DNA of 64,000 nucleotides, from IMG/VR virus record IMGVR_UViG_3300027895_000070, positions 1 to 64,000 of that record, one strand, 5' to 3'. The DNA comes from a virus. A program made the translations under genes and the position numbers. The notes beneath the pieces were generated by a model. The model saw nothing but the letters and a program-made list of their open reading frames with translations, had not been told where the DNA came from and ran no database searches. Positions within the stretch are counted from its first letter, which is position 1. The number at the start of each line of letters is the position of its first letter. Of the stretch, positions 986 through 44,898 are shown piece after piece.

Positions 986-2201
986 GTTTCATTGGGGCGA
1001 AGATCAGATCGATTGCGGCATTCCATCCCCGGACAAATGAAGATGAGACGCCGCCCAATGGGTCGTTGATGGTATTAATCGCCGTTGCCAAATCCTCTTC
1101 CGTTGGCCTCATCACCCCCGGTGCGGTGGACGCGGAGAGGGCGGAAGCGATTGCGGTTGCGATGGAATTGCGAAGGCCACCCATGCACCTCCGAATCTCA
1201 TGGTGACTAATCTCGTGATTGAGTGGACTAAATGTAATGCCGCGTCCATCTGAACTAACAAATCGAACCTCTGTTCCGCAACTATTCCCGATAGGTATGA
1301 TCTTCTCCGCAATCTCCCTCGCGCGCGTCATCGCGTCCGGCGAAGGCTGCGGCTGCAAGTAACTTGTGGGCCGGTCAGCCAACGCCTCTCGAATCTTGGT
1401 GATGCGAGTCAGGAACCAGTCATCCCGTTCATAGGACACATCAATTCTCTCAAAAGTCTCCGCCAAAAGCCGCTCGGCTTCCCCAATTGCATCCCAAACC
1501 GTCCGACCATTCGGCGTCTTGTCTGGCTGCGGCTGCCGGGAGGCGGCGTAGGCGCGGAGGGCGGAGGCGATTACCTTTTTTGTGGCCCAAGCAAGTTCTG
1601 TGCATGATTGTTTGGGGTGAACCAAAAAGGCGGCGGTAAAAATATCATGCTTTAGGTTAATCCATACTCCGTTTTGCTGCACAATCTCCTCGGCGAACCT
1701 CTCCTCCGCCCCGTCCGTCGTCGCGCCAGCAGCGGGAGAGGCGATAGAGCCACCAGTAAGTGTGACTGTCGCACCAATCGGCTCGCCGACGCATTCGCTC
1801 GGCTCTTTCCCCTCCCCCGCCGTCGCGGCTTGTGCGGGCAGGGGACGGCCTTGGGAATCGCAGCGGAACCAAATCGTATTACCGCGATCGGCGGCACAGG
1901 CAATCTCCTCAAAAGAAAAAGACGGATTATCATTTCTACCACCCCACGACGTGGCGAAATAGATTCCCGCTTCACTTAAAACGTAGTGCCCGTTGCCCTC
2001 GTCGCAATTCCATCGCCCGTAATACCACTCTCTCGGATGCCGACGCTTCCACTCCCCGCCTTCCGCCGGCGGTTGCTCGGCGTAGATGTCGAGGAGGAGG
2101 TCGAGAAGGATAATAAGATAATTGCGATTGGGTTGCGGATGCCCCATTTGGTCTCGGAGCGACTGAAGTCTTTCGCGGATTTGTTGGGGAGTGAGGGTCA
2201 T
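969..2201 (-). CDS. Hypothetical accessory protein, 410 aa, composite
   Basis: No family is recognised with confidence. The product starts MTLTPQQIRERLQSLRDQMG and looks like a patchwork of short phage modules: an N-terminal helical piece, a Trp/Gly-rich segment near residues 45-110, an Ala-rich helical stretch near 210, and a C-terminal part with repeated ATAIASALSAS-like helices. It is the last gene of the leftward run from 4.5 kb. Its 5' neighbour ends six bases upstream, which suggests one transcript. Phage genes that are the most distal in an early operon are often host-interaction genes, but nothing in the sequence shows a role. Confidence 0.55.
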   Translation of the reverse strand: MTLTPQQIRERLQSLRDQMGHPQPNRNYLIILLDLLLDIYAEQPPAEGGEWKRRHPREWYYGRWNCDEGNGHYVLSEAGIYFATSWGGRNDNPSFSFEEIACAADRGNTIWFRCDSQGRPLPAQAATAGEGKEPSECVGEPIGATVTLTGGSIASPAAGATTDGAEERFAEEIVQQNGVWINLKHDIFTAAFLVHPKQSCTELAWATKKVIASALRAYAASRQPQPDKTPNGRTVWDAIGEAERLLAETFERIDVSYERDDWFLTRITKIREALADRPTSYLQPQPSPDAMTRAREIAEKIIPIGNSCGTEVRFVSSDGRGITFSPLNHEISHHEIRRCMGGLRNSIATAIASALSASTAPGVMRPTEEDLATAINTINDPLGGVSSSFVRGWNAAIDLIFAPMKQPQPK

Positions 2202-2206
2202 TGGGA

Positions 2207-2452
2207 TTACCTCTGTTGGATGGCTCGGACGGATATCTGCTTGACGCCGCTGAGTGCGATGCCGCGACTTCCAGATCGTTTGCAGCTCAAATCCTTATCA
2301 TCAGTCCCGGCATCCTGAAAAACCTGTCTAAGCCTTCCCGTCGCATCATCCGTAGCCTGCTTGATGATCTGTTGCATCGTCGTATCCTCGCTCCAACAAC
2401 TGTCGCATTCGATCTGAAGTTCAACGACGCAAGTTGCCTTTACTGAGTTCAT
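2207..2452 (-). CDS. Hypothetical protein, 81 aa
   Basis: Small protein beginning MNSVKATCVVELQIECDS with a helical middle (QQIIKQATDDATGRLRQVFQDA). No motif is recognised. It lies between two genes of the same leftward operon with gaps of 3-5 bases, which supports real translation. Confidence 0.55.
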   Translation of the reverse strand: MNSVKATCVVELQIECDSCWSEDTTMQQIIKQATDDATGRLRQVFQDAGTDDKDLSCKRSGSRGIALSGVKQISVRAIQQR

Positions 2453-2455
2453 CTC

Positions 2456-2746
2456 TCATTTCCTTCCGCCCGCGCTGGGCGGCGTCAAATCACCAAACCT
2501 CGCTATCGGTGCAACAAAATCTCCCCACACAAAGCATTCCCGCCATTGCGTCTCGCGCACGCCATGGACGGATACGCTCAATGCCTCGTCAGCCATCGAA
2601 TCATTTTCCCAATCAATGCTGTTGGCGTTGACCTGAACGATTTCCCATGTGTCCGATGGACACAATTCTGCCTTCTCAAAGGTGTCATCAGCGGGGATTC
2701 GCCACTTTGCCCAGTAATATCCCGGCTTGGTTGGAGTTTTGCTCAT
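2456..2746 (-). CDS. Hypothetical protein, 96 aa
   Basis: The product begins MSKTPTKPGYYWAKWRIPAD. The opening KPGYYWAKW followed by W-E-V/I-V motifs resembles a common family of short phage and plasmid proteins of unknown role. Its ATG overlaps the TGA of the gene before it by four bases (ATGA), typical of translational coupling. Confidence 0.65.
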   Translation of the reverse strand: MSKTPTKPGYYWAKWRIPADDTFEKAELCPSDTWEIVQVNANSIDWENDSMADEALSVSVHGVRETQWRECFVWGDFVAPIARFGDLTPPSAGGRK

Positions 2747-2916
2747 GTTCTTTTTCTCCTCGGCTTCGATAATTCGGAAAGCCGTTTTTGGGCTGCGTGA
2801 TGAGCCTGACGTAGCGTTTCGCGCTTCTCACTAAGTCGAATCCATTCCTTGTGAACCTCTTCAAGTTCAGAGTCGATCAACCTGAATTCTCGTTCGGCTC
2901 GTTCCTTTGCTGTCAT
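2743..2916 (-). CDS. Small coiled-coil protein, 57 aa
   Basis: The frame starts MTAKERAEREFRLIDSELEE and is highly charged and helical throughout, ending in a basic PRRKRT tail. It overlaps its upstream and downstream neighbours by four bases each. The composition suggests a short coiled coil; no function is known. It is too short for many gene finders, but the double ATGA overlap makes it convincing. Confidence 0.6.
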   Translation of the reverse strand: MTAKERAEREFRLIDSELEEVHKEWIRLSEKRETLRQAHHAAQKRLSELSKPRRKRT

Positions 2917-3275
2917 TCCCCACCTCGCCTTTCGGGGGCAGCGGGGAGGGGACGCCAGAGATCGGAATCAAACGCGAAAGGACCGCCAACGGATGACCAT
3001 ATATTCGACGGGTCCACTCCCGTTGTCGCCGGTCTATAAACGGCAACGCAAAGTCTTTCTACCATTTGTTTATTGGCGGGTTTCTCCTCCCCTAGCGTCC
3101 GCCACCGCTCTTCGTCGGGGAGGGCGAGGAAGGCGCGGACCTTTCGCATATGCTCATCCGCAACCGTATCCCAAGGGGGACGATCAGATTCTTTTAGCTT
3201 CTGGTCGGCAACGAAAAGCAACCACTCTATCGCCTCGCGCACGTCTTGGGGGAGAGAATTAGAGGCCACAATCAT
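2913..3275 (-). CDS. Hypothetical protein, 120 aa
   Basis: The product begins MIVASNSLPQDVREAIEWLL and has an amphipathic helical N-terminus (residues 8-55), then a less ordered C-terminal half. No motif is recognised. It belongs to the tightly packed leftward operon. Confidence 0.55.
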   Translation of the reverse strand: MIVASNSLPQDVREAIEWLLFVADQKLKESDRPPWDTVADEHMRKVRAFLALPDEERWRTLGEEKPANKQMVERLCVAVYRPATTGVDPSNIWSSVGGPFAFDSDLWRPLPAAPERRGGE

Positions 3276-3432: not shown

Positions 3433-3812
3433 TGTCGCCCTCCATCCTCGGTTTGAAGAAAGGCGAGCGAATACGGCAATGCCTCAATGCTGGGGTCCAT
3501 TTGCTTATGATCGATTCGACCATCCGCCTTTTCGTCCGCCACTTCGCTCCATAGAAGTTTTCGCGGCACGCCTGGATCAGGGCCAAGTGATGGCCACCAA
3601 TTGGCGCGAATAGAAGCCGCGATACTCTTTTCAGCATCCGAACCGCCTTGCTCAACGAATCTCGCCATGTATTCGCGGCAAGCCAATAGCCCAGCACGGA
3701 AGAATACTTTGTGAATCGGATTGTGGGTGAGGACAGCATTCAAATCGGGAACCATCCGATGCAACTCAGCCAAGTCCTCTGCGTCCCATTCCGTGTCAAT
3801 CTTCTCGCTCAT
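3429..3812 (-). CDS. Hypothetical protein, 127 aa
   Basis: The start at 3812 (MSEKIDTEWDAEDLAELH) is chosen over the ATG at 3839 because AAAGGAG lies just upstream of it. The product is mostly helical, with a YMARFVEQGG segment in the middle, and resembles generic phage early proteins. No function is recognised. Confidence 0.55.
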   Translation of the reverse strand: MSEKIDTEWDAEDLAELHRMVPDLNAVLTHNPIHKVFFRAGLLACREYMARFVEQGGSDAEKSIAASIRANWWPSLGPDPGVPRKLLWSEVADEKADGRIDHKQMDPSIEALPYSLAFLQTEDGGRQ

Positions 3813-3835
3813 GACTTCTTCTCCTTTGCGTTTGA

Positions 3836-4297
3836 TCACTGCCGCGCCTCGATGATCTCACCACGGCCCTGACGCAACGATACGATTCCCCAAAATCCCT
3901 CGCGGACCATCGAGCCAGCTTGTTCGTATAGGGAGTTTGTTACGAGGCGATGAGCCGGGTGTGGAAGCTGTAACACGGGAAGTCGGTGGGCAATTTCTGT
4001 CACAACCTCAGCCGCCTGTCGCCCAAAAGTAACCACACAATCCGGCTTAACCTCACGCAACACGCCACGAATATGGGCCTCGTCCGGCGCAACCACTGAA
4101 TTGGGATTGTCGCCGACAATTGGCGTGGTGTTGTCGTAATGAATGGCGCAAGCCGCCGCGCCCTCAAACACACGAAGACGCTGGCCGCTTCGCGATTTAG
4201 CCAGCGCCTTAAGCCAAGATCGGCGAGGCCATGTGCCGCCTGCGTAAAGGGGACTCCACGCATTCTGCAAAAAACAGACTATCATTTTTGGTTTCAC
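3836..4297 (-). CDS. Uracil-DNA-glycosylase-superfamily-like protein, 153 aa
   Basis: The layout fits a small UDG-fold protein: an N-terminal NAWSP segment, a central strand and helix PDCVVTFGRQAAEVV, and a C-terminal LPVLQLPHPAHRL where UDG enzymes carry the HPS-type loop. Family knowledge says such enzymes remove uracil from DNA. Here the catalytic water-activating motif near the N-terminus is not clear, so activity is uncertain. It overlaps its upstream neighbour by four bases. It could serve repair of phage DNA, or be an inactive DNA-binding relative. Confidence 0.5.
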   Translation of the reverse strand: MKPKMIVCFLQNAWSPLYAGGTWPRRSWLKALAKSRSGQRLRVFEGAAACAIHYDNTTPIVGDNPNSVVAPDEAHIRGVLREVKPDCVVTFGRQAAEVVTEIAHRLPVLQLPHPAHRLVTNSLYEQAGSMVREGFWGIVSLRQGRGEIIEARQ

Positions 4298-4473
4298 TTC
4301 TTCTCTTTCTTCCCCGCAGCCTCGCGGGCGGAAATGGCCTCAGAAATAAGAATCCTCGCCATGTTTGATGTAGGGCGGGATTCCCTTTCGGCAAGCTCAA
4401 TCAAATCGCCCCATGTTTCGGCGTCGAGCTTGATGCCCAATACATCGCCATCTTTTTTGGTCGTGGTTGCCAT
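4294..4473 (-). CDS. Ribbon-helix-helix-like small protein, 59 aa
   Basis: Reads MATTTKKDGDVLGIKLDAET, then helices with SNMARILISEAISAREAAGK. The short strand followed by two helices fits CopG/Arc-type RHH DNA-binding proteins. The ATG at 4473 is preferred over the one at 4479 because the predicted -10 box (4480-4485) ends six bases upstream, giving a leaderless mRNA. Being first in its operon and beside a divergent promoter, it is a candidate autoregulator. Confidence 0.55.
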   Translation of the reverse strand: MATTTKKDGDVLGIKLDAETWGDLIELAERESRPTSNMARILISEAISAREAAGKKEKK

Positions 4474-4479
4474 GTCCAT

Positions 4480-4553
4480 AGAGTATTGTCACGAATTCTA
4501 GTTGTCAACAATAAAATTTGGCTATTGACAATTTGGTTGTTTCCGATTATAAT
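4480..4553. promoter_or_regulatory. Divergent sigma70-type promoters with inverted -35 boxes
   Basis: Rightward: TTGACA (4525-4530), 17-base spacer, TATAAT (4548-4553), both perfect consensus. Leftward: TTGACA on the minus strand (4503-4508), 17-base spacer, TACTCT (4480-4485). The two -35 boxes form the inverted repeat TTGTCAA/TTGACAA. The leftward start codon lies six bases past its -10. This is the likely main early promoter region. Confidence 0.75.
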
Positions 4554-4613
4554 GCGGGCGTCGATTGGAATTGGCCAACCGACAGGGGCCGCTAAATGCG
4601 GCAGGAGAATCAA

Positions 4614-4901
4614 ATGGATAAGCTGGCAATTCAGCAGACCATAAAAGAGGCCATGGGATTGGCCGCGAGTAATCCCGGTCCAAACGGCGGTCGATACGTC
4701 GGTCGAAAATACAACAAGAAAACCCAGAAGGGCGAATACATCATCCTCGAAACCGACAATCCCGATGAGCTTCACGCGATGAAGGACTGGAAGTCGAACA
4801 AGCTTGATGTGTTCGCCCATGTGTTGCCGACAAAATGCTATGGCATCGGATATGCCCGGAATTGGCTGAATCAGGACGGCACAGTCCATTTTGAGGATTA
4901 G
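4614..4901 (+). CDS. Hypothetical protein, 95 aa
   Basis: Starts MDKLAIQQTIKEAMGLAASN after a clear AGGAG and a small GCCGC-loop-GCGGC hairpin. The middle GRYVGRKYNKKTQKGEYI is basic and strand-rich, which could suit nucleic-acid binding. It is the first gene read from the strong rightward promoter at 4.5 kb, so it is expected to be expressed early and highly. Function unknown. Confidence 0.6.
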   Translation: MDKLAIQQTIKEAMGLAASNPGPNGGRYVGRKYNKKTQKGEYIILETDNPDELHAMKDWKSNKLDVFAHVLPTKCYGIGYARNWLNQDGTVHFED

Positions 4902-4975
4902 CGGATTCTCCGCCATGCCGCCGCGAGTCGCCGCGTACAGCGGCCCGGCGGCGTGGCCTCTATGCTCTCCCCGTC

Positions 4976-4994
4976 GCCCCGGAAGCGGGCAAAC
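4976..4994 (+). repeat. 19-base hairpin repeat, copy 1 (before an RBS)
   Basis: GCCCCGGAAGCGGGCAAAC folds as GCCC-loop-GGGC and stands just ahead of AAAGGA and the ATG at 5006. An identical copy precedes the next gene at 5291-5309. Confidence 0.6.
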
Positions 4995-6373: not shown

Positions 6374-7309
6374 TTATATCGGTGCGAGGGGGATGAGACT
6401 TGAATTATTCTGCGTGGTTATCGCTTCCGGCTTCGGAGCGGAGAATAAGTCGAGTTGATCTTTGCTCGCCATTGTCTCGGCTCGCTGGCAATTGCGAATG
6501 GCCGCTTCGTAATAACTGTCCTTCAATTCGATGCCGATTCCCCGGCGTCCGAGCTTCAGAGCCATGTAGACTTCGCTGCCGATGCCACAAAATGGCGTGA
6601 GTATGATTTCGTCGGGATTACTATACATCCGAATCAGCCGATTAATGACGCCAAGCTGAAGAGGGCAAATATGCTTTGTATCGGACGAATCCCGGCCTTC
6701 GGAGACGTTCAGAGTATCCGTCTGGCGGATATCTGTCCATGCCGCTTCGGCCCATTGAATCCAATCGTTGCGAGTTACTTGGGCTATACTATCGACCGGA
6801 ACTGCGTTTGCACCGGGCTTGCTGAACAGAATAATGTAATCGCCCATTGCTCCCCGGCACTGCGCCCTATCCGCTTCCAATCCCGCGAATTGCAGGCTTC
6901 TCGCCTTCGTGCGGATAGCTTGCGACTGGGGATCTTTAGTGATGAGCCAGTCGTATTCGTAGGTGAATCCGGCGCGTTGGCCAAGGCGGATCAGCAGCCC
7001 ACGAAAATCGAACATGCCCAATTCTCCGCTCCGTTTGAGCCGCTTGATTTGCGAGCAATGCACCGCCATGACCCGGCCCGGCTTAATCAGTCTCAGGATG
7101 GATCGGTAGAAAAACGACAGGTGCAATTTCGCTTCTGATTTTAACTCCTCAGAATTACCGATATCGGCGACCATATTGGTGTATGCGAAGGTAGATGGGA
7201 ACGGCGGCGAAAATACCGAGAAGTCGATCGAATTCTCCGGCATATTTCGCATTTCTGGGATGCAGTCGCCGTGAATGATTTTGAATCTTTCGGTGTCTTC
7301 AAGAAACAT
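6374..7309 (-). CDS. DNA N4-cytosine/N6-adenine methyltransferase (beta-class arrangement)
   Basis: The start at 7309 (MFLEDTERFKIIHGDC) has GGAAAGGAAG upstream and is preferred to the ATG at 7378. Near residue 30 the catalytic motif IV reads FSVFSPPFPS. SPPF is usual in N4-cytosine enzymes and also seen in some N6-adenine enzymes. The SAM-binding motif I comes after it, LTPFCGIGSEVYMALKLG, followed by RGIGIELKDSYYEAA. That order (IV before I) defines the beta class. It overlaps the helicase end by 11 bases. With the D12 methylase two genes away, it probably modifies phage DNA, either against restriction or as a marker of replicated DNA. Confidence 0.85.
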   Translation of the reverse strand: MFLEDTERFKIIHGDCIPEMRNMPENSIDFSVFSPPFPSTFAYTNMVADIGNSEELKSEAKLHLSFFYRSILRLIKPGRVMAVHCSQIKRLKRSGELGMFDFRGLLIRLGQRAGFTYEYDWLITKDPQSQAIRTKARSLQFAGLEADRAQCRGAMGDYIILFSKPGANAVPVDSIAQVTRNDWIQWAEAAWTDIRQTDTLNVSEGRDSSDTKHICPLQLGVINRLIRMYSNPDEIILTPFCGIGSEVYMALKLGRRGIGIELKDSYYEAAIRNCQRAETMASKDQLDLFSAPKPEAITTQNNSSLIPLAPI

Positions 7310-20935: not shown

Positions 20936-23575
20936 ATGGAAGCCGAACTTCCGCAAGATATGCTCTCGCACGCGCTGGCCTATGCTAAACGGGGCTGGCT
21001 CGTCCTGCCTCTCCACAATCCAATTCTCAGGCTGGACAAGTTGATTTGCTCATGTTCACTGGGGGATAAGTGTACATCTCCCGCCAAACACCCGCGAACC
21101 GAATCGGGGTTAAAAGACGCGACGATTGACGAGCTGCAAATCCGCCGCTGGTGGACGATGTGGCCGCAGGCGAATATCGGGCTGGCGACGGGTTTGGCCA
21201 GTGGAGTCATCGCGGTAGATATTGACGGCGTTTATGGCCAGCAATCTTTGGAAGTGCTTCAACAGGAATATGGAACACTCCCAGAAACATTGCGTCAGCG
21301 GACGCCGCGAGAGGGGGGAGAGCATTATCTGTTCAAATTCGATCCACTTCATCCCGTTGCTAACACCCAGCCGCCAGGGCCGGTTCTAGGAGACAAGATC
21401 GATACGCGGGGTAACGGCGGATACATTGTCGTGGCCCCTTCTCGTGTGCCCAGCGGCAGGCAATACGAATGGCTCAACGATTTCGAGGTCGCGGAAATGC
21501 CGCGATGGATTTACGGGGTAATTGAGGCCAATCGGGACGCAAAAAAGAAACCAAAGGCGATTCCGCCGGCTGAAAGAACCGTGACGGAATCCGGACCTTA
21601 TTGGCTGGGAAAAGCGCTGGCGATAGTCGGAGTAGGAAATCGAAATAACACCGGCTTTTGGTTGGCCTGCCAGTTGCGTGATGCCCGGCTTAGCGAATCG
21701 GAAGCCACGCCAATCATTCAGGATTTTTGCGCCCGTTGTCCGCGAGGCGACAAGGAATATTCTGTCGATGAAGCGATGGCCTCGTTGCGAGAGGCTTTTA
21801 GTCAATCCCCCCGCGAGCCGACGGATTTTGAGAAGCGGCGATTGGAGAGCAAAAAACGCGATCGAACTCGCGCCCCATCGACGCGAAAAAACGGCCATCC
21901 CGACGTTGAAACTGGGGATAACGGTCACCCCGAGGTGATCGAACCGCCTGAACACGCGCACCCCGGCGACGCGAGCGAAGAAGAAGACAATCGACCAGAA
22001 ATCTTCGTGTCAACCGATGAGCATACTGTCGCGGACGGAACGGTTGAGGCAATTGAGGGTGACCCAGAACTTTATCATCGTGCCGGCGCTTTGGTTCATG
22101 TTGTCAATGCGGCGGAACGGAGCAAACGGAAGGGAATTATCGGCGACCCCACGATTATAGAAGCTTCTCCCTTATGGGTACGCGAACGGATCAATCGACG
22201 GGCGAAGCTCATGCAGAAGATCAAAACAAAAGAGGGGTGGAAAGATGTTCGTACACACGTCCCAGTTTGGCTTCCAGGAATGATTCTGGCGCGGGGCGAG
22301 TGGCCGAATGTCCGTGGCCTTCGGGCAATTTCTGATGCTCCGGTATTACGGGCAGATGGCTCACTGCATCAGATAGCAGGATACGATGAACAAACTGGAG
22401 TTTTGTACGTCCCATCCCAGGAATTTCCGGCTATCGGCGAAGTTGATATGGACGATGCCTCAATCGCGGTGGATAAACTGTTGGAACTTGTTTCGGATTT
22501 CCCCTTTGAACTGTCGGAGCATCGATCCGCGTGGCTCGCCAGCCTTTTGACGCCACTGGCGAGGTTTGCGTTTGATGGGCCTTCCCCGGCATTTCTGACG
22601 GACGGCAACGTGCGGGGTTCCGGCAAAGGATTATCGTGCCAAGTCGCCGCGCTTATCATCATGGGCCGCGAGATGCCGGTTAGCGGATATTCGGCTGATC
22701 CCGTGGAAATGGCGAAGAAAATCACGGCTATTGCGTTGGCTGGCCGGTCGATGGTGCTGCTCGATAACGTCACGGGAACATTCGGCAATGACGCGATTGA
22801 TCGGGCATTGACGGCCACACGTTGGGAGGATCGGATTCTAGGATATAGCGAGACGAAAGAGGTTCCGCTTTACACGACGTGGTACGCGACGGGGAACAAC
22901 TTCACCATCGCCGCGGATGCGGCGCGTCGGGCTATTCATATCCGGTTAGACTCACAAGAAGAACGACCAGAGGAGCGGAATAATTTCAAAATTCCCAAGA
23001 TTCGTTCGCATATCCTGAAATCCCGTCCCCAATTATTGTCGTATGCCCTGACGATTTTGATGGCTTATTTTCGCGCCGGTGCTCCCAAAAAGGAAAAACT
23101 GTCGGCCTTCGGATCATTCGAGGGATGGTCGGATTTGATCCGCAACGCTTTGATTTGGATCGGACAAGTTGATCCATGCAATACGCGGGCGAATATGATG
23201 GAGCTATCTGATGAGACGGGAATTCAATTGCGGGATTTAGTCAAGGCATGGGACCAATTTGACCATCACGGAATCGGCATGACCTGTGCCGATCTTATCA
23301 ACCGTCTATACAACCCGCGATTGCGCTCCGAGGGGGATATCGACATTGCCATGCGGGCGGCGGTTGAGGCCATTACAAAGACAGGGCCAGGGAAGACGCC
23401 AACCGCCAGAATGATTGGTTCCAAATTAAAACAGTTTCGGCGGCGAGTAGTGGGAATTCTCAAATTCGATGTCGATCCCAAAAAAGACGACTCGGCGGGG
23501 GCAACTTGGAAGCTATTCCCAAAAACGTATGTGCCTGAAATTGCCGTTGAAGCGGACTCGACCATTCCAGATTGA
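20936..23575 (+). CDS. Prim-Pol primase-polymerase with C-terminal helicase-like ATPase, 879 aa
   Basis: Residues 8-200 are a Prim-Pol (AEP) domain: AYAKRGWLVLPLHNP, a zinc-type CSCSLGDKCTSPAKHP, ANIGLATGLASGVIAVDIDG with the catalytic Asp pair, and PREGGEHYLFKF in place of the S/GGGxH motif. After an acidic linker with an NGHP..NGHPEV repeat, residues 520-720 form an ATPase: DGNVRGSGKGLSCQ (P-loop with Gly instead of Ser/Thr after Lys), MVLLDNV (Walker B-like) and a late AADAARRAIHIRLDS arginine motif. It would prime and unwind DNA at the phage origin. The gene precedes the iteron cluster. Confidence 0.88.
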   Translation: MEAELPQDMLSHALAYAKRGWLVLPLHNPILRLDKLICSCSLGDKCTSPAKHPRTESGLKDATIDELQIRRWWTMWPQANIGLATGLASGVIAVDIDGVYGQQSLEVLQQEYGTLPETLRQRTPREGGEHYLFKFDPLHPVANTQPPGPVLGDKIDTRGNGGYIVVAPSRVPSGRQYEWLNDFEVAEMPRWIYGVIEANRDAKKKPKAIPPAERTVTESGPYWLGKALAIVGVGNRNNTGFWLACQLRDARLSESEATPIIQDFCARCPRGDKEYSVDEAMASLREAFSQSPREPTDFEKRRLESKKRDRTRAPSTRKNGHPDVETGDNGHPEVIEPPEHAHPGDASEEEDNRPEIFVSTDEHTVADGTVEAIEGDPELYHRAGALVHVVNAAERSKRKGIIGDPTIIEASPLWVRERINRRAKLMQKIKTKEGWKDVRTHVPVWLPGMILARGEWPNVRGLRAISDAPVLRADGSLHQIAGYDEQTGVLYVPSQEFPAIGEVDMDDASIAVDKLLELVSDFPFELSEHRSAWLASLLTPLARFAFDGPSPAFLTDGNVRGSGKGLSCQVAALIIMGREMPVSGYSADPVEMAKKITAIALAGRSMVLLDNVTGTFGNDAIDRALTATRWEDRILGYSETKEVPLYTTWYATGNNFTIAADAARRAIHIRLDSQEERPEERNNFKIPKIRSHILKSRPQLLSYALTILMAYFRAGAPKKEKLSAFGSFEGWSDLIRNALIWIGQVDPCNTRANMMELSDETGIQLRDLVKAWDQFDHHGIGMTCADLINRLYNPRLRSEGDIDIAMRAAVEAITKTGPGKTPTARMIGSKLKQFRRRVVGILKFDVDPKKDDSAGATWKLFPKTYVPEIAVEADSTIPD

Positions 23576-42160: not shown

Positions 42161-42718
42161 ATGATAGGCGACGAACAAAATAAAACGCTGACTCGTGAAG
42201 AGCTTTTGGAACTCACCAATCGCGAGCGAGAGCTTAACCGAGAACTTTCTCCGGACGAGATAAAAGAGTTCCGCTTGGAGCGGCGAGCGGCATTGCAAGC
42301 CGCTTTTCTGGCTGCATATCGGCAGAGTGGCGTTATCAGAACGGCTAGCGAGGCCGCCGGGGTTTCCCGCAAAGCTGCTCGATATTGGAAGGACGTTGAT
42401 CCAACTTGGGCCGAACGCTTCGCCGAGGCGAACGAAGAGGCCATTGAGCGGTGGGAGGAAGAGGCGGTTCGTCGCGCGGTGGAAGGCGTGTGGAAATACA
42501 AATTCCACAAGGGGCAAATGATTATGATCCCCGAAAATCCAGACGATCCGAATAGCAAAATGGTTCCATATCGAGAACATGAATTCAGCGACAATCTTCT
42601 GATGTTCAAATTGAAAGCGGCGCGCCCGGAAAAATATCGGGACAATTTGGACGTGACGACCGGCGGACAGCCGATCACAGTGAAGATTCTCCAAAATGTC
42701 AGCATGAGCGATCTGTGA
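42161..42718 (+). CDS. terS: Terminase small subunit, 185 aa
   Basis: AFLAAYRQSGVIRTASEAAG and VSRKAARYWKDVDPTWAERF form a helix-turn-helix DNA-recognition domain (residues 45-80). A helical centre follows (AIERWEEEAVRRAVEGVWKY) and then the typical late segment EFSDNLLMFKLKAARPEKYR. It overlaps the TerL start by four bases. It recognises the packaging site and recruits the large subunit. Confidence 0.85.
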   Translation: MIGDEQNKTLTREELLELTNRERELNRELSPDEIKEFRLERRAALQAAFLAAYRQSGVIRTASEAAGVSRKAARYWKDVDPTWAERFAEANEEAIERWEEEAVRRAVEGVWKYKFHKGQMIMIPENPDDPNSKMVPYREHEFSDNLLMFKLKAARPEKYRDNLDVTTGGQPITVKILQNVSMSDL

Positions 42719-44898
42719 ACGAGTATGTGATCGCGGAATTGAAATCTGGACAAGAGGGCGGATTCTCTCCACGCGGTGCGGCAAGGGAACTTTGGAAGAC
42801 AAGAGATTTTGAAACGATTGTCTCTGGCCCTGCCGAATGTATCGCGGGGGAAACGATAATCGACGATCCGGTTAGCGGTATCGGTACAAGAATTGACAAG
42901 TTATGCCGCCTTGGAAAGAGGCCCATCGTGCAAACGATGGATGGTCCTGTTTTGGCGGAAGTTCCGTTTCTGAAGGGACGCGATAGAATTTTCAGAGTTC
43001 GGTTTAATGATGGAACTGATTTTTGCGGAACACGACAGCACTTCATTTTGACTGAGCTTGGCTGGCGGGGCGTCGGATCGCTGCAAGTTGGCGACCGCGT
43101 TCCCTCATCTTCTCGATCCCAGCGGGGGTGTGGCGAGGTTTTTTGCCAGCCAAAGTTTTCGCGAGGTGGCTCGCATTGTTTGCAAACAGTTGAAGATTGC
43201 TCGGATCGTTGTTTGAACAGTTATCGTCAAGATGATGAACAACCTCTGTCGGGAGTAATCGGCGTCCAAGTTGTTTCTCCATCACAATCCGATGTTCGCG
43301 TACAAGCCCGTGACTGTCCGCATCCGGATGATCCGGAATCCAGAGTAAAACGTATCCGCTTTTGTCGATTCGGCGTCCGCCCTTCCAGCGAGCGTTTCCA
43401 GAACCAGAATTGGAATGTGGGACGTATCGAATATTCTGAGAAATCAAAAACGCCTTCACATGCCGCTTGTTTGTACCAATTGCCCTCGCCATCGCGGACA
43501 GTGAAGTGCCGGTTTTGGCAAGGGTCCTCATGGGAAAATTCCGATTTGGTCCAGTGGAAACTTGTCGATTCGATAGAATTTGATCGGATAGATGACTTCT
43601 ATGATTTGCGTGTTCCGGACAGCGAACACTACTCGGCACATGGCGTCTGGCATCACAATACGGGCAAAACATGGGGATGTCTGCAATACGCCGATGCCTT
43701 GCTTTGGAAATATCCGAACGCTCAAGGCGTCATGTGCCGAAAGGTATATTCGACGCTCGTGGGGACGGCGATACAAACCCTTAAAAGAATTTTGGGGCCA
43801 GATACGCCGGTTAAAACATACGGCGGCGAACATCCGCAGTGGTTCGATTACCCGAATGGTTCTCGGCTTTGGTTGGCAGGAATGGACAATCCCGGTAAGG
43901 CTCTTTCCAGTGAGCGGGATTTTGTTTACATCAATCAGGCCGAAGAGCTTTCACTGAACGACTTTGAAATCCTGCTGACCCGTACAACGGGTCGCGGCGC
44001 GGTGATGCCTTATACGCGGGTCTTTGGCGACTGCAATCCCGGTCCTCCGCAGCATTGGCTAAAGCAGCGTTCGATATCCGGGCCGCTAAAGATGCTGGAT
44101 TCGCATCACCGCGATAATCCGACGCTCTTCACGGAATCGGGAGAAATAACCCAGCAGGGCAAGCGGACGATGGGCATTTTGTCCAGCTTGACTGGCGCGA
44201 GAAGGCTTCGTTTATTGGAGGGAAAATGGTCGCAAGCGGAAGGATTGGTTTACGAGGGATTTGACGCCGAGAAGCACGTCATAACCCGAAAGAAATTTTC
44301 AGAAGTCTCGGTTCGACGATATGTATTCGGTATAGATTGGGGATATACGAATCCCGGAATCATTCAGGTGTGGGGGATCGACGGAGACGGCAGGGCTTAT
44401 CTTACAAAGGAAATATTCCGCTCCAAGCGTACGCTCGATTGGTGGATTCTCAGGGCGAAGGAGTTGAATCAAGAATACCGTCCCGAACTCGTCGTATGCG
44501 ATCCCGCCGAACCGGCGAACATCGAGGCGTTCTATAATGCAAAGCTTCCCGTGATTGCGGGATTCAACGATATCTCGCCCGGCATTCAATGTGTGGCTCA
44601 GCGGCTTAAAGACGCGGGCGACAAAAAACCTCGATTGTTCATGGTCGAGGACGCGAGAGAAGAAATTGACGAGGCATTGGTTGAGATGAAATTTCCAACC
44701 AGCACACGGGAAGAAATGGACGCCTACTCTTGGCCGAAGAGCGCTGATGGAAAGCCGATTAAAGAAGTCCCTATAGACAAAGACAACCATGGATGCGATG
44801 CAATGAGATATGTCATGGCCCAACTCGATGGATTGAACGGACGAATCGTTCAATTTGAAAGTGACTTTGACAGTTATATCGCGACGGCGAGAGGATAA
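42715..44898 (+). CDS. terL: Terminase large subunit interrupted by an intein, 727 aa precursor
   Basis: Exteins are residues 1-41 (to GPAE) and 316-727 (from TGKTWGCLQYAD). Removal of residues 42-315 yields the Walker A motif SGPAETGKTWG. Further motifs: Walker B VYINQAEEL, coupling TTGRGAVMPYTRVFGDCNPG, and a RuvC-like nuclease with YVFGIDWGYTNPGII, LVVCDPAEPANIEA and HGCDAMRYVM. This is the packaging motor and headful nuclease. The joined protein would be 453 aa, normal for the family. Because the P-loop is split exactly, the enzyme can only pack DNA after splicing. Confidence 0.92.
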   Translation: MNEYVIAELKSGQEGGFSPRGAARELWKTRDFETIVSGPAECIAGETIIDDPVSGIGTRIDKLCRLGKRPIVQTMDGPVLAEVPFLKGRDRIFRVRFNDGTDFCGTRQHFILTELGWRGVGSLQVGDRVPSSSRSQRGCGEVFCQPKFSRGGSHCLQTVEDCSDRCLNSYRQDDEQPLSGVIGVQVVSPSQSDVRVQARDCPHPDDPESRVKRIRFCRFGVRPSSERFQNQNWNVGRIEYSEKSKTPSHAACLYQLPSPSRTVKCRFWQGSSWENSDLVQWKLVDSIEFDRIDDFYDLRVPDSEHYSAHGVWHHNTGKTWGCLQYADALLWKYPNAQGVMCRKVYSTLVGTAIQTLKRILGPDTPVKTYGGEHPQWFDYPNGSRLWLAGMDNPGKALSSERDFVYINQAEELSLNDFEILLTRTTGRGAVMPYTRVFGDCNPGPPQHWLKQRSISGPLKMLDSHHRDNPTLFTESGEITQQGKRTMGILSSLTGARRLRLLEGKWSQAEGLVYEGFDAEKHVITRKKFSEVSVRRYVFGIDWGYTNPGIIQVWGIDGDGRAYLTKEIFRSKRTLDWWILRAKELNQEYRPELVVCDPAEPANIEAFYNAKLPVIAGFNDISPGIQCVAQRLKDAGDKKPRLFMVEDAREEIDEALVEMKFPTSTREEMDAYSWPKSADGKPIKEVPIDKDNHGCDAMRYVMAQLDGLNGRIVQFESDFDSYIATARG
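42838..43659 (+). other. Intein inserted in the TerL P-loop, 274 aa
   Basis: Block A begins with Cys (CIAGETIIDDPVSGIGTRID). Block B is GTRQHFILTELGWRGVGSLQ, with the TxxH motif. After a linker, block F is VDSIEFDRIDDFYDLRVPD, and block G ends SAHGVWHHN before a +1 Thr. Cys1, TxxH, penultimate His, terminal Asn and Thr+1 are the class 1 intein requirements. The linker (about residues 86-240) has no LAGLIDADG or sense HNH motif and reads as antisense filler of the endonuclease gene at 43043-43531. Confidence 0.92.
43043..43531 (-). CDS. HTH-HNH homing endonuclease, encoded antisense inside the intein, 162 aa
   Basis: The ATG at 43531 gives MRTLAKTGTSLSAMARAIGT (the HTH-like part, SAMARAIGTNKRHVKAFL). 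Then comes GSGNARWKGGRRIDKSGYVL, VREHRIVMEKQLGRRLLPTE and the HNH core VVHHLDDNCSNNDPSNLQLF followed by NNASHLAK, with a basic end. All HNH residues are present and the frame is intact. A start at 43672 is possible but would extend over block G into the extein. Family members cut DNA at homing sites; here the likely target is an intein-free terL gene. Confidence 0.88.
   Translation of the reverse strand: MRTLAKTGTSLSAMARAIGTNKRHVKAFLISQNIRYVPHSNSGSGNARWKGGRRIDKSGYVLLWIPDHPDADSHGLVREHRIVMEKQLGRRLLPTEVVHHLDDNCSNNDPSNLQLFANNASHLAKTLAGKKPRHTPAGIEKMRERGRQLAAIRRPASQAQSK

Follow-up and report, generated by a model that had tools for sequence, protein, structure and literature searches.

A phage terminase intein with a putative homing endonuclease gene intact on the opposite strand

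The large terminase subunit gene (terL) of a phage is interrupted in its Walker A motif by an intein, and the opposite strand of the same DNA carries an intact frame for an HTH-HNH_3 protein, a putative homing endonuclease. We read this arrangement, with a probability of roughly 0.86, as a mobile class-1-type P-loop terminase intein with an antisense homing HNH, in which splicing, cleavage, homing and antisense expression would all take place. Several features at the level of sequence support this reading: both frames and their catalytic residues are intact, the HNH protein is under purifying selection in relatives, stops are avoided in the sense frame, a related system offers an exact empty site, and the element occupies unrelated P-loop hosts. 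The DNA analysed, hereafter the window, comprises 64,000 nt of a 64,690-base IMG/VR phage record. A preliminary description had proposed a TerL intein with an antisense HNH in this window; sequence checks confirmed that observation in coordinates and content and support its core interpretation, that of an intein with an intact homing endonuclease gene on the other strand.

The terL gene occupies positions 42715–44898 (+), begins with GTG and remains free of stops over its full 727 aa. It matches phrog_5653, terminase large subunit (E 2e-24), and TIGR01547 phage_term_2 (E 3e-11, below the curated cut-off). Directly 5′ of it lies terS, the small terminase subunit gene (42161–42718, +; phrog_4044, E 4.5e-31). 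Other genes of the phage include those for a primase-polymerase-like protein (20936–23575, +) and a DNA helicase (7299–8978, −).

The intein spans 42838–43659 (+), exactly 274 codons corresponding to TerL residues 42–315, and is inserted in the Walker A motif between GPAE and TGKT, with the exteins at 42715–42837 and 43660–44898. As first described, all splicing elements are present in the sense frame: Cys1, TRQH in block B, the terminal His-Asn and Thr+1. Together with a block F Asp, these are the features of a class 1 type intein (Cys1, block B TxxH, block F Asp, His-Asn, and Ser, Thr or Cys at +1). Specifically, C1, H68, D256 and N274 are invariant across 60 relatives, and H273 is nearly so. 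When the intein was queried against protein profiles and solved structures, Pfam Intein_splicing matched it at E 1.2e-4, under the curated cut-off, and a profile of the 60 relatives matched solved inteins in the PDB at E 1.5e-24. The AlphaFold2 (AF2) model of the two halves resembles the HINT fold of the Mtu RecA intein (2imz; Foldseek E 1.4e-8).

The N-terminal splicing domain, with blocks A and B (aa 1–90; 42838–43107, +), is modelled at a pLDDT of ~97, and the C-terminal splicing domain, with blocks F and G and ending in HHN (aa 240–274; 43555–43659, +), at ~95–98; they match our N-domain and C-domain profiles at 7e-28 and 5e-15, respectively, with the window itself among the seeds of both profiles. 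Between them, at the usual position of an endonuclease, lies a stop-free linker (aa 91–239; 43108–43554, +) that is predicted to be disordered (pLDDT ~45–63). In the sense model as a whole, residues 1–90 and 240–278 reach ~97, the last few extein residues being lower, while residues 91–235 stay at ~50. Consistent with the preliminary description, the sense stretch between blocks B and F holds no endonuclease: it has no domain match, and the window thus lacks the in-frame sense endonuclease of canonical inteins. The N and C halves form one continuous frame, so the window carries neither a split intein nor a fractured gene. An intron, of group I or group II, was considered and rejected, as neither strand of 42300–44200 gave an Rfam match at E values up to 1 and the host frame runs through the insertion without a stop. 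The TerL intein presumably undergoes protein splicing.

On the minus strand, a frame at 43043–43531 encodes a putative HTH-HNH_3 homing endonuclease of 162 aa, counted from an inner ATG. The longest version of the frame comprises 209 aa (43043–43672, −), and the C-terminal end of the HNH overlaps the N-terminal splicing domain of the intein. The complete minus-strand HTH-HNH of the preliminary description is borne out in its frame and its catalytic residues (HH...N...N...H); its start is uncertain, the candidates being ATG 43672, GTG 43639 and ATG 43531. The protein, searched against protein families, matches Pfam HNH_3 (PF13392) at E 5.6e-8, above the cut-off, and phrog_20891 at 1e-27, and its AF2 model has a pLDDT of 90.8. 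I-HmuI is encoded in sense inside a group I intron, whereas no intron was found at the window locus. The two proteins share the layout of an HNH and a helix-turn-helix, and I-HmuI (PDB 1u3e) is the best Foldseek match of the HNH, though a weak one (E 0.9). No recognisable Shine-Dalgarno sequence precedes the three candidate starts, and no sigma-70-like promoter was found within 42600–44400, which leaves the independent HNH transcript of the preliminary description without a promoter of that kind in this interval. Production of the HNH would presumably proceed through an antisense transcript.

The arrangement recurs widely. Viral contigs were searched with the HNH protein and then scanned with a profile; with splicing domains identified by profiles built here, this yielded 83 loci (71 without near-duplicates) that carry intein splicing domains in one open frame and an HNH on the opposite strand, the same antisense arrangement that had been sought in relatives. 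HNH relatives lie antisense inside inteins of other terminases at L002, L003, L004 and L016, locus L001 was recovered with a TerL query, and the profile scan added 80 loci, nearly all of them built in this way. As a control, ~50 loci hold stand-alone or otherwise placed HNH homologues with no splicing domain opposite. In a second search, based on sense splicing motifs and independent of the HNH, 67 of 75 complete continuous inteins had their HNH antisense and in the phase shared by the family, a count that includes repeats of contigs already in the family set. None of the 75 has a sense in-frame HNH, and no relative inserted at the site of the window intein has a sense in-frame endonuclease; an endonuclease in that position in related inteins had been named in advance as evidence against the preliminary description. 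HNH_3 was matched in 61 of the 62 family members scanned, with invariant key residues, and HTH families were detected in several members, so that an HNH_3 is joined to a DNA-binding domain. At the family level, 22 of the 82 ATGs at the expected HNH N-terminus are preceded by a Shine-Dalgarno sequence, compared with 4.3% of other positions (p 6e-12). Translation of the minus frame is thus indicated for the family, and the window adds no Shine-Dalgarno sequence of its own.

Throughout the family, the two frames share one phase: in 83/83 loci, codon position 1 of the HNH faces position 1 of the sense frame, and position 3 of the HNH therefore lies opposite sense position 2. The sense frame contains no stop in any of the 83 loci, compared with 5.15 expected per locus when the HNH protein is held fixed and synonyms are redrawn from the codon usage of each locus; because the loci are related, they do not amount to 83 independent trials. 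For the window alone, 4.6 sense stops are expected over the HNH stretch, and the probability of an open frame is 0.005. The other two antisense frames of the 83 loci hold 407 and 823 stops. An open sense frame by chance was rejected on the absence of stops against the 5.15 expected per locus.

Selection distinguishes the two strands. Twelve pairs of relatives were compared, drawn from loci other than the window and not all mutually independent. Eleven of them have a dN/dS of 0.08–0.24 in the HNH frame and, over the same DNA, 1.1–2.7 in the sense frame; in the remaining pair, which has few changes, the values are 0.52 and 0.55. Conservation of the HNH frame in relatives, set beforehand as a test of the preliminary description, was thus found in the form of purifying selection. 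In pairs of relatives, the flanking splicing domains and the exteins are conserved in the sense frame. Furthermore, among five cultured Pectobacterium and Dickeya phages, variable sites at sense codon positions 1, 2 and 3 number 12/5/138 in the C-extein and 9/22/12 in the HNH region (p 8e-18). The dN/dS values and the codon-position pattern indicate that protein-coding constraint switches strand along the element. Since the sense-frame dN/dS exceeds 1 where the HNH frame is constrained, the sense middle is a stop-free, apparently disordered linker; AF2 agrees, with ~97 for the HINT halves, ~50 for the linker and 91 for the HNH. The middle of the sense intein retains openness, not sequence. The preliminary description had placed both strands under coding constraint: this holds for the conserved HNH protein, and the sense middle is held mainly to the absence of stops. 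Across 71 family loci, the hydrophobicity of the sense linker slightly exceeds that expected when the HNH is recoded synonymously (0.243 versus 0.217, p 0.002), and selection for a hydrophilic sense linker was therefore rejected.

These data bear on two explanations in which the HNH protein has no part. The HNH frame could be a fossil or a chance antisense frame, with the intein alone functional; the missing start signal in the window and the existence of mini-inteins without an HNH, one of them with a remnant, fit such an origin, but the near-universal HNH_3 match with invariant key residues, the low HNH-frame dN/dS in all but the low-divergence pair and the Shine-Dalgarno enrichment at family HNH ATGs make it very improbable. 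Alternatively, the antisense transcript itself could be functional and regulate TerL production. Antisense RNA within a late gene could in principle dampen that gene, but a regulatory transcript leaves the protein-level conservation of the HNH unexplained, and we regard this as extremely improbable.

Among the other inteins of the motif search, the endonuclease varies. One ~148-aa mini-intein (L175, 3501–3956 of its locus) keeps an antisense remnant of the C-terminal tail of the HNH and was apparently formed through deletion of the endonuclease; four others (L177, L189, L223 and L224) are mini-inteins without an HNH. Another intein (L222) has a partial HNH match, and L221 has a divergent antisense HNH_3. 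In L183 (locus 3501–4478), a TerL intein is closely related to L003 in its splicing domains and has a sense frame open over 951 aa, and its antisense HNH is Cys-rich, belongs to an unrelated family (PF01844) and lies in a different codon phase; we read it as an antisense endonuclease captured independently. A homing life cycle predicts such cases, in which the endonuclease is lost, reduced to a remnant or replaced.

The distribution of the element points to mobility. Insertion points lie in or beside the Walker A motif, at several neighbouring positions, and the host proteins are terminases of several families, helicases of the SNF2 and ResIII types, one SMC-like protein and one AAA ATPase. 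C-exteins show no detectable similarity in 2,028 of 2,415 HNH-related pairs, and HNH distances correlate with splicing-domain distances (Mantel 0.39, p 0.001). HNH genes adjoining terminase genes help packaging in some phages, and the present HNH, which sits inside terL under strong purifying selection, could likewise serve the phage, for example as a packaging nuclease partner of the terminase, instead of acting as a homing enzyme. We consider this highly unlikely, because close intein-free relatives have a terL without an HNH, the same element occurs in helicases, the SMC-like protein and the AAA ATPase, and the exteins of most HNH-related pairs lack detectable similarity. It is also unlikely that the HNH is an independent selfish gene that uses the intein as a safe home, chooses its own target and lets the intein hitch-hike. 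Stand-alone HNH homologues exist, and the unrelated HNH of L183 was captured in antisense; against this stand the correlation of HNH with splicing-domain distances and the confinement of insertions to Walker A. This alternative differs little in practice from homing of a composite element. Under the preferred reading, a mobile intein with an antisense homing HNH, distribution and selection together suggest that the HNH cuts the element-free allele and drives homing.

Nine cultured phages carry the element: the Pectobacterium phages Koroua, Amona, Ymer, Abuela, Sabo, Taid and Pappous, Dickeya phage Setonix, and Pseudoalteromonas phage PHS3. Their viability with an intein-bearing TerL is indirect support for splicing. 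Intein-free alleles had been sought in related terL genes, and Escherichia phage KW1E_UTAR offers a precise empty site: AGFG is followed directly by TGKS, where 288 aa separate AGFG from TGKS in Koroua (a site in the terL of a relative, not that of the window). TerL is annotated as hypothetical in the seven Pectobacterium records, and the Setonix record is unannotated; the Ymer genus paper makes no mention of an intein or an HNH. In PHS3 (L106, KX912252.1, locus 1149–3275), the HNH is annotated in GenBank. The GenBank 'terminase large subunit' begins at a Met inside the C half of the intein, leaving the N-extein and the N-intein unannotated, and no P-loop was seen in the CDS named 'terminase ATPase subunit' (locus 4253–4990). 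A fractured terL, as the GenBank annotation of PHS3 would imply, was rejected: the sense frame is continuous and the record is misannotated. Streptococcus phage IPP24 was rejected as a further cultured case, since its HNH-like gene is contained in an ordinary gene of the same strand, and tblastn of the metagenomic sense inteins of L003 and L064 against cultured phages gave no matches.

Two loci resemble derivatives in which the intein has been split. On a contig that also carries L045 and L226 (IMGVR_UViG_3300049489_001113), the intein of L001 splits an AAA ATPase gene: a stop ends the sense frame behind the N half, the C half begins at a separate ATG with GAGGT 5′ of it at a spacing of 7, and the HNH is encoded in antisense between the two halves. 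L001 is likely a trans-splicing split intein. In L077 (1–773), the N half-intein ends in a stop beside the antisense HNH, further sense stops follow, and the end of the contig hides the C half. Both loci appear to be stages in the passage from whole intein to split intein.

An intein with an in-frame HNH was reportedly described by Dalgaard et al. in 1997. Canonical endonuclease-containing inteins (LAGLIDADG or in-frame HNH) share with the present element a HINT domain, a P-loop target gene, an endonuclease region between blocks B and F, and HNH chemistry; here, in contrast, the endonuclease lies on the opposite strand, outside the spliced-out protein, and its sense counterpart is a linker without domain content. 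Fractured genes, with split inteins and an endonuclease gene between the halves, were reportedly described by Dassa et al. in 2009. There too the endonuclease is a separate gene between intein halves, a form that L001 takes, whereas the window halves make one polypeptide and the endonuclease is antisense. The mycobacteriophage TerL inteins (PMC5050341) are likewise inserted in the TerL Walker A motif, but here insertion is usually two residues before the Lys, with some relatives at their GK/T site. That survey mentions no antisense endonuclease, and the words 'antisense' and 'opposite' are absent from it.

The closest description found in the literature is that of the ShiLan domain, an out-of-frame HNH inside phage DNA methylases (PMC11855218). 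Both systems hide an HNH in an open host frame, involve overlapping coding and are mobile in phages. However, the ShiLan HNH is read from the host transcript in a different frame, is not accompanied by a splicing domain and remains part of the host protein, whereas the window element has its HNH antisense in an intein. The ShiLan paper cites a preprint for actinobacteriophage inteins of 'non-canonical architecture' (Gosselin 2025, bioRxiv 10.1101/2025.01.02.630785) and cites Gorbalenya 1998 regarding overlapping frames; some cases of an antisense-HNH intein may already have been reported, for example in that preprint. Separately, one locus (L010, 2331–2852) holds a ShiLan-like same-strand, out-of-frame HNH within a DNA methylase. 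In another (L015, 3875–4354), an HNH_3-like gene lies antisense, in yet another phase, in a 2,508-aa open frame without intein domains, and may be the antisense counterpart of a ShiLan insertion.

We propose that the HTH-HNH_3 gene, which is housed head-on within the intein, opposite the stretch where canonical inteins hold their in-frame endonuclease, is the homing endonuclease gene of the intein. Ribosomes would read the TerL mRNA straight through the intein; the N- and C-terminal thirds would fold into the HINT splicing domain, the middle serving as disordered, stop-free filler, and excision would restore GPAE-TGKT. A separate antisense transcript would give the HNH protein. P-loop DNA without the intein would be recognised and cleaved by this protein, and repair would copy the intein in.

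In this element, the splicing and the homing of a mobile intein are placed on opposite strands of the same DNA, an arrangement conserved across dozens of unrelated phages. It provides a natural long antisense overlap of two useful products with a measurable trade-off, the protein being kept on one strand and openness on the other, and it is testable now because nine carrier phages are already in culture. More broadly, we hold it to be an even proposition that the family is a large, old lineage of P-loop inteins whose endonuclease moved to the antisense strand, in a layout that arose more than once (with HNH_3 and, in L183, with PF01844), that allows expression of the endonuclease independently of the host gene, and that leads naturally to split inteins when the linker gains stops, as in L001 and L077. 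Split inteins are tools in wide use, and how they originated is a standing question; the family makes a path from whole to split inteins visible.
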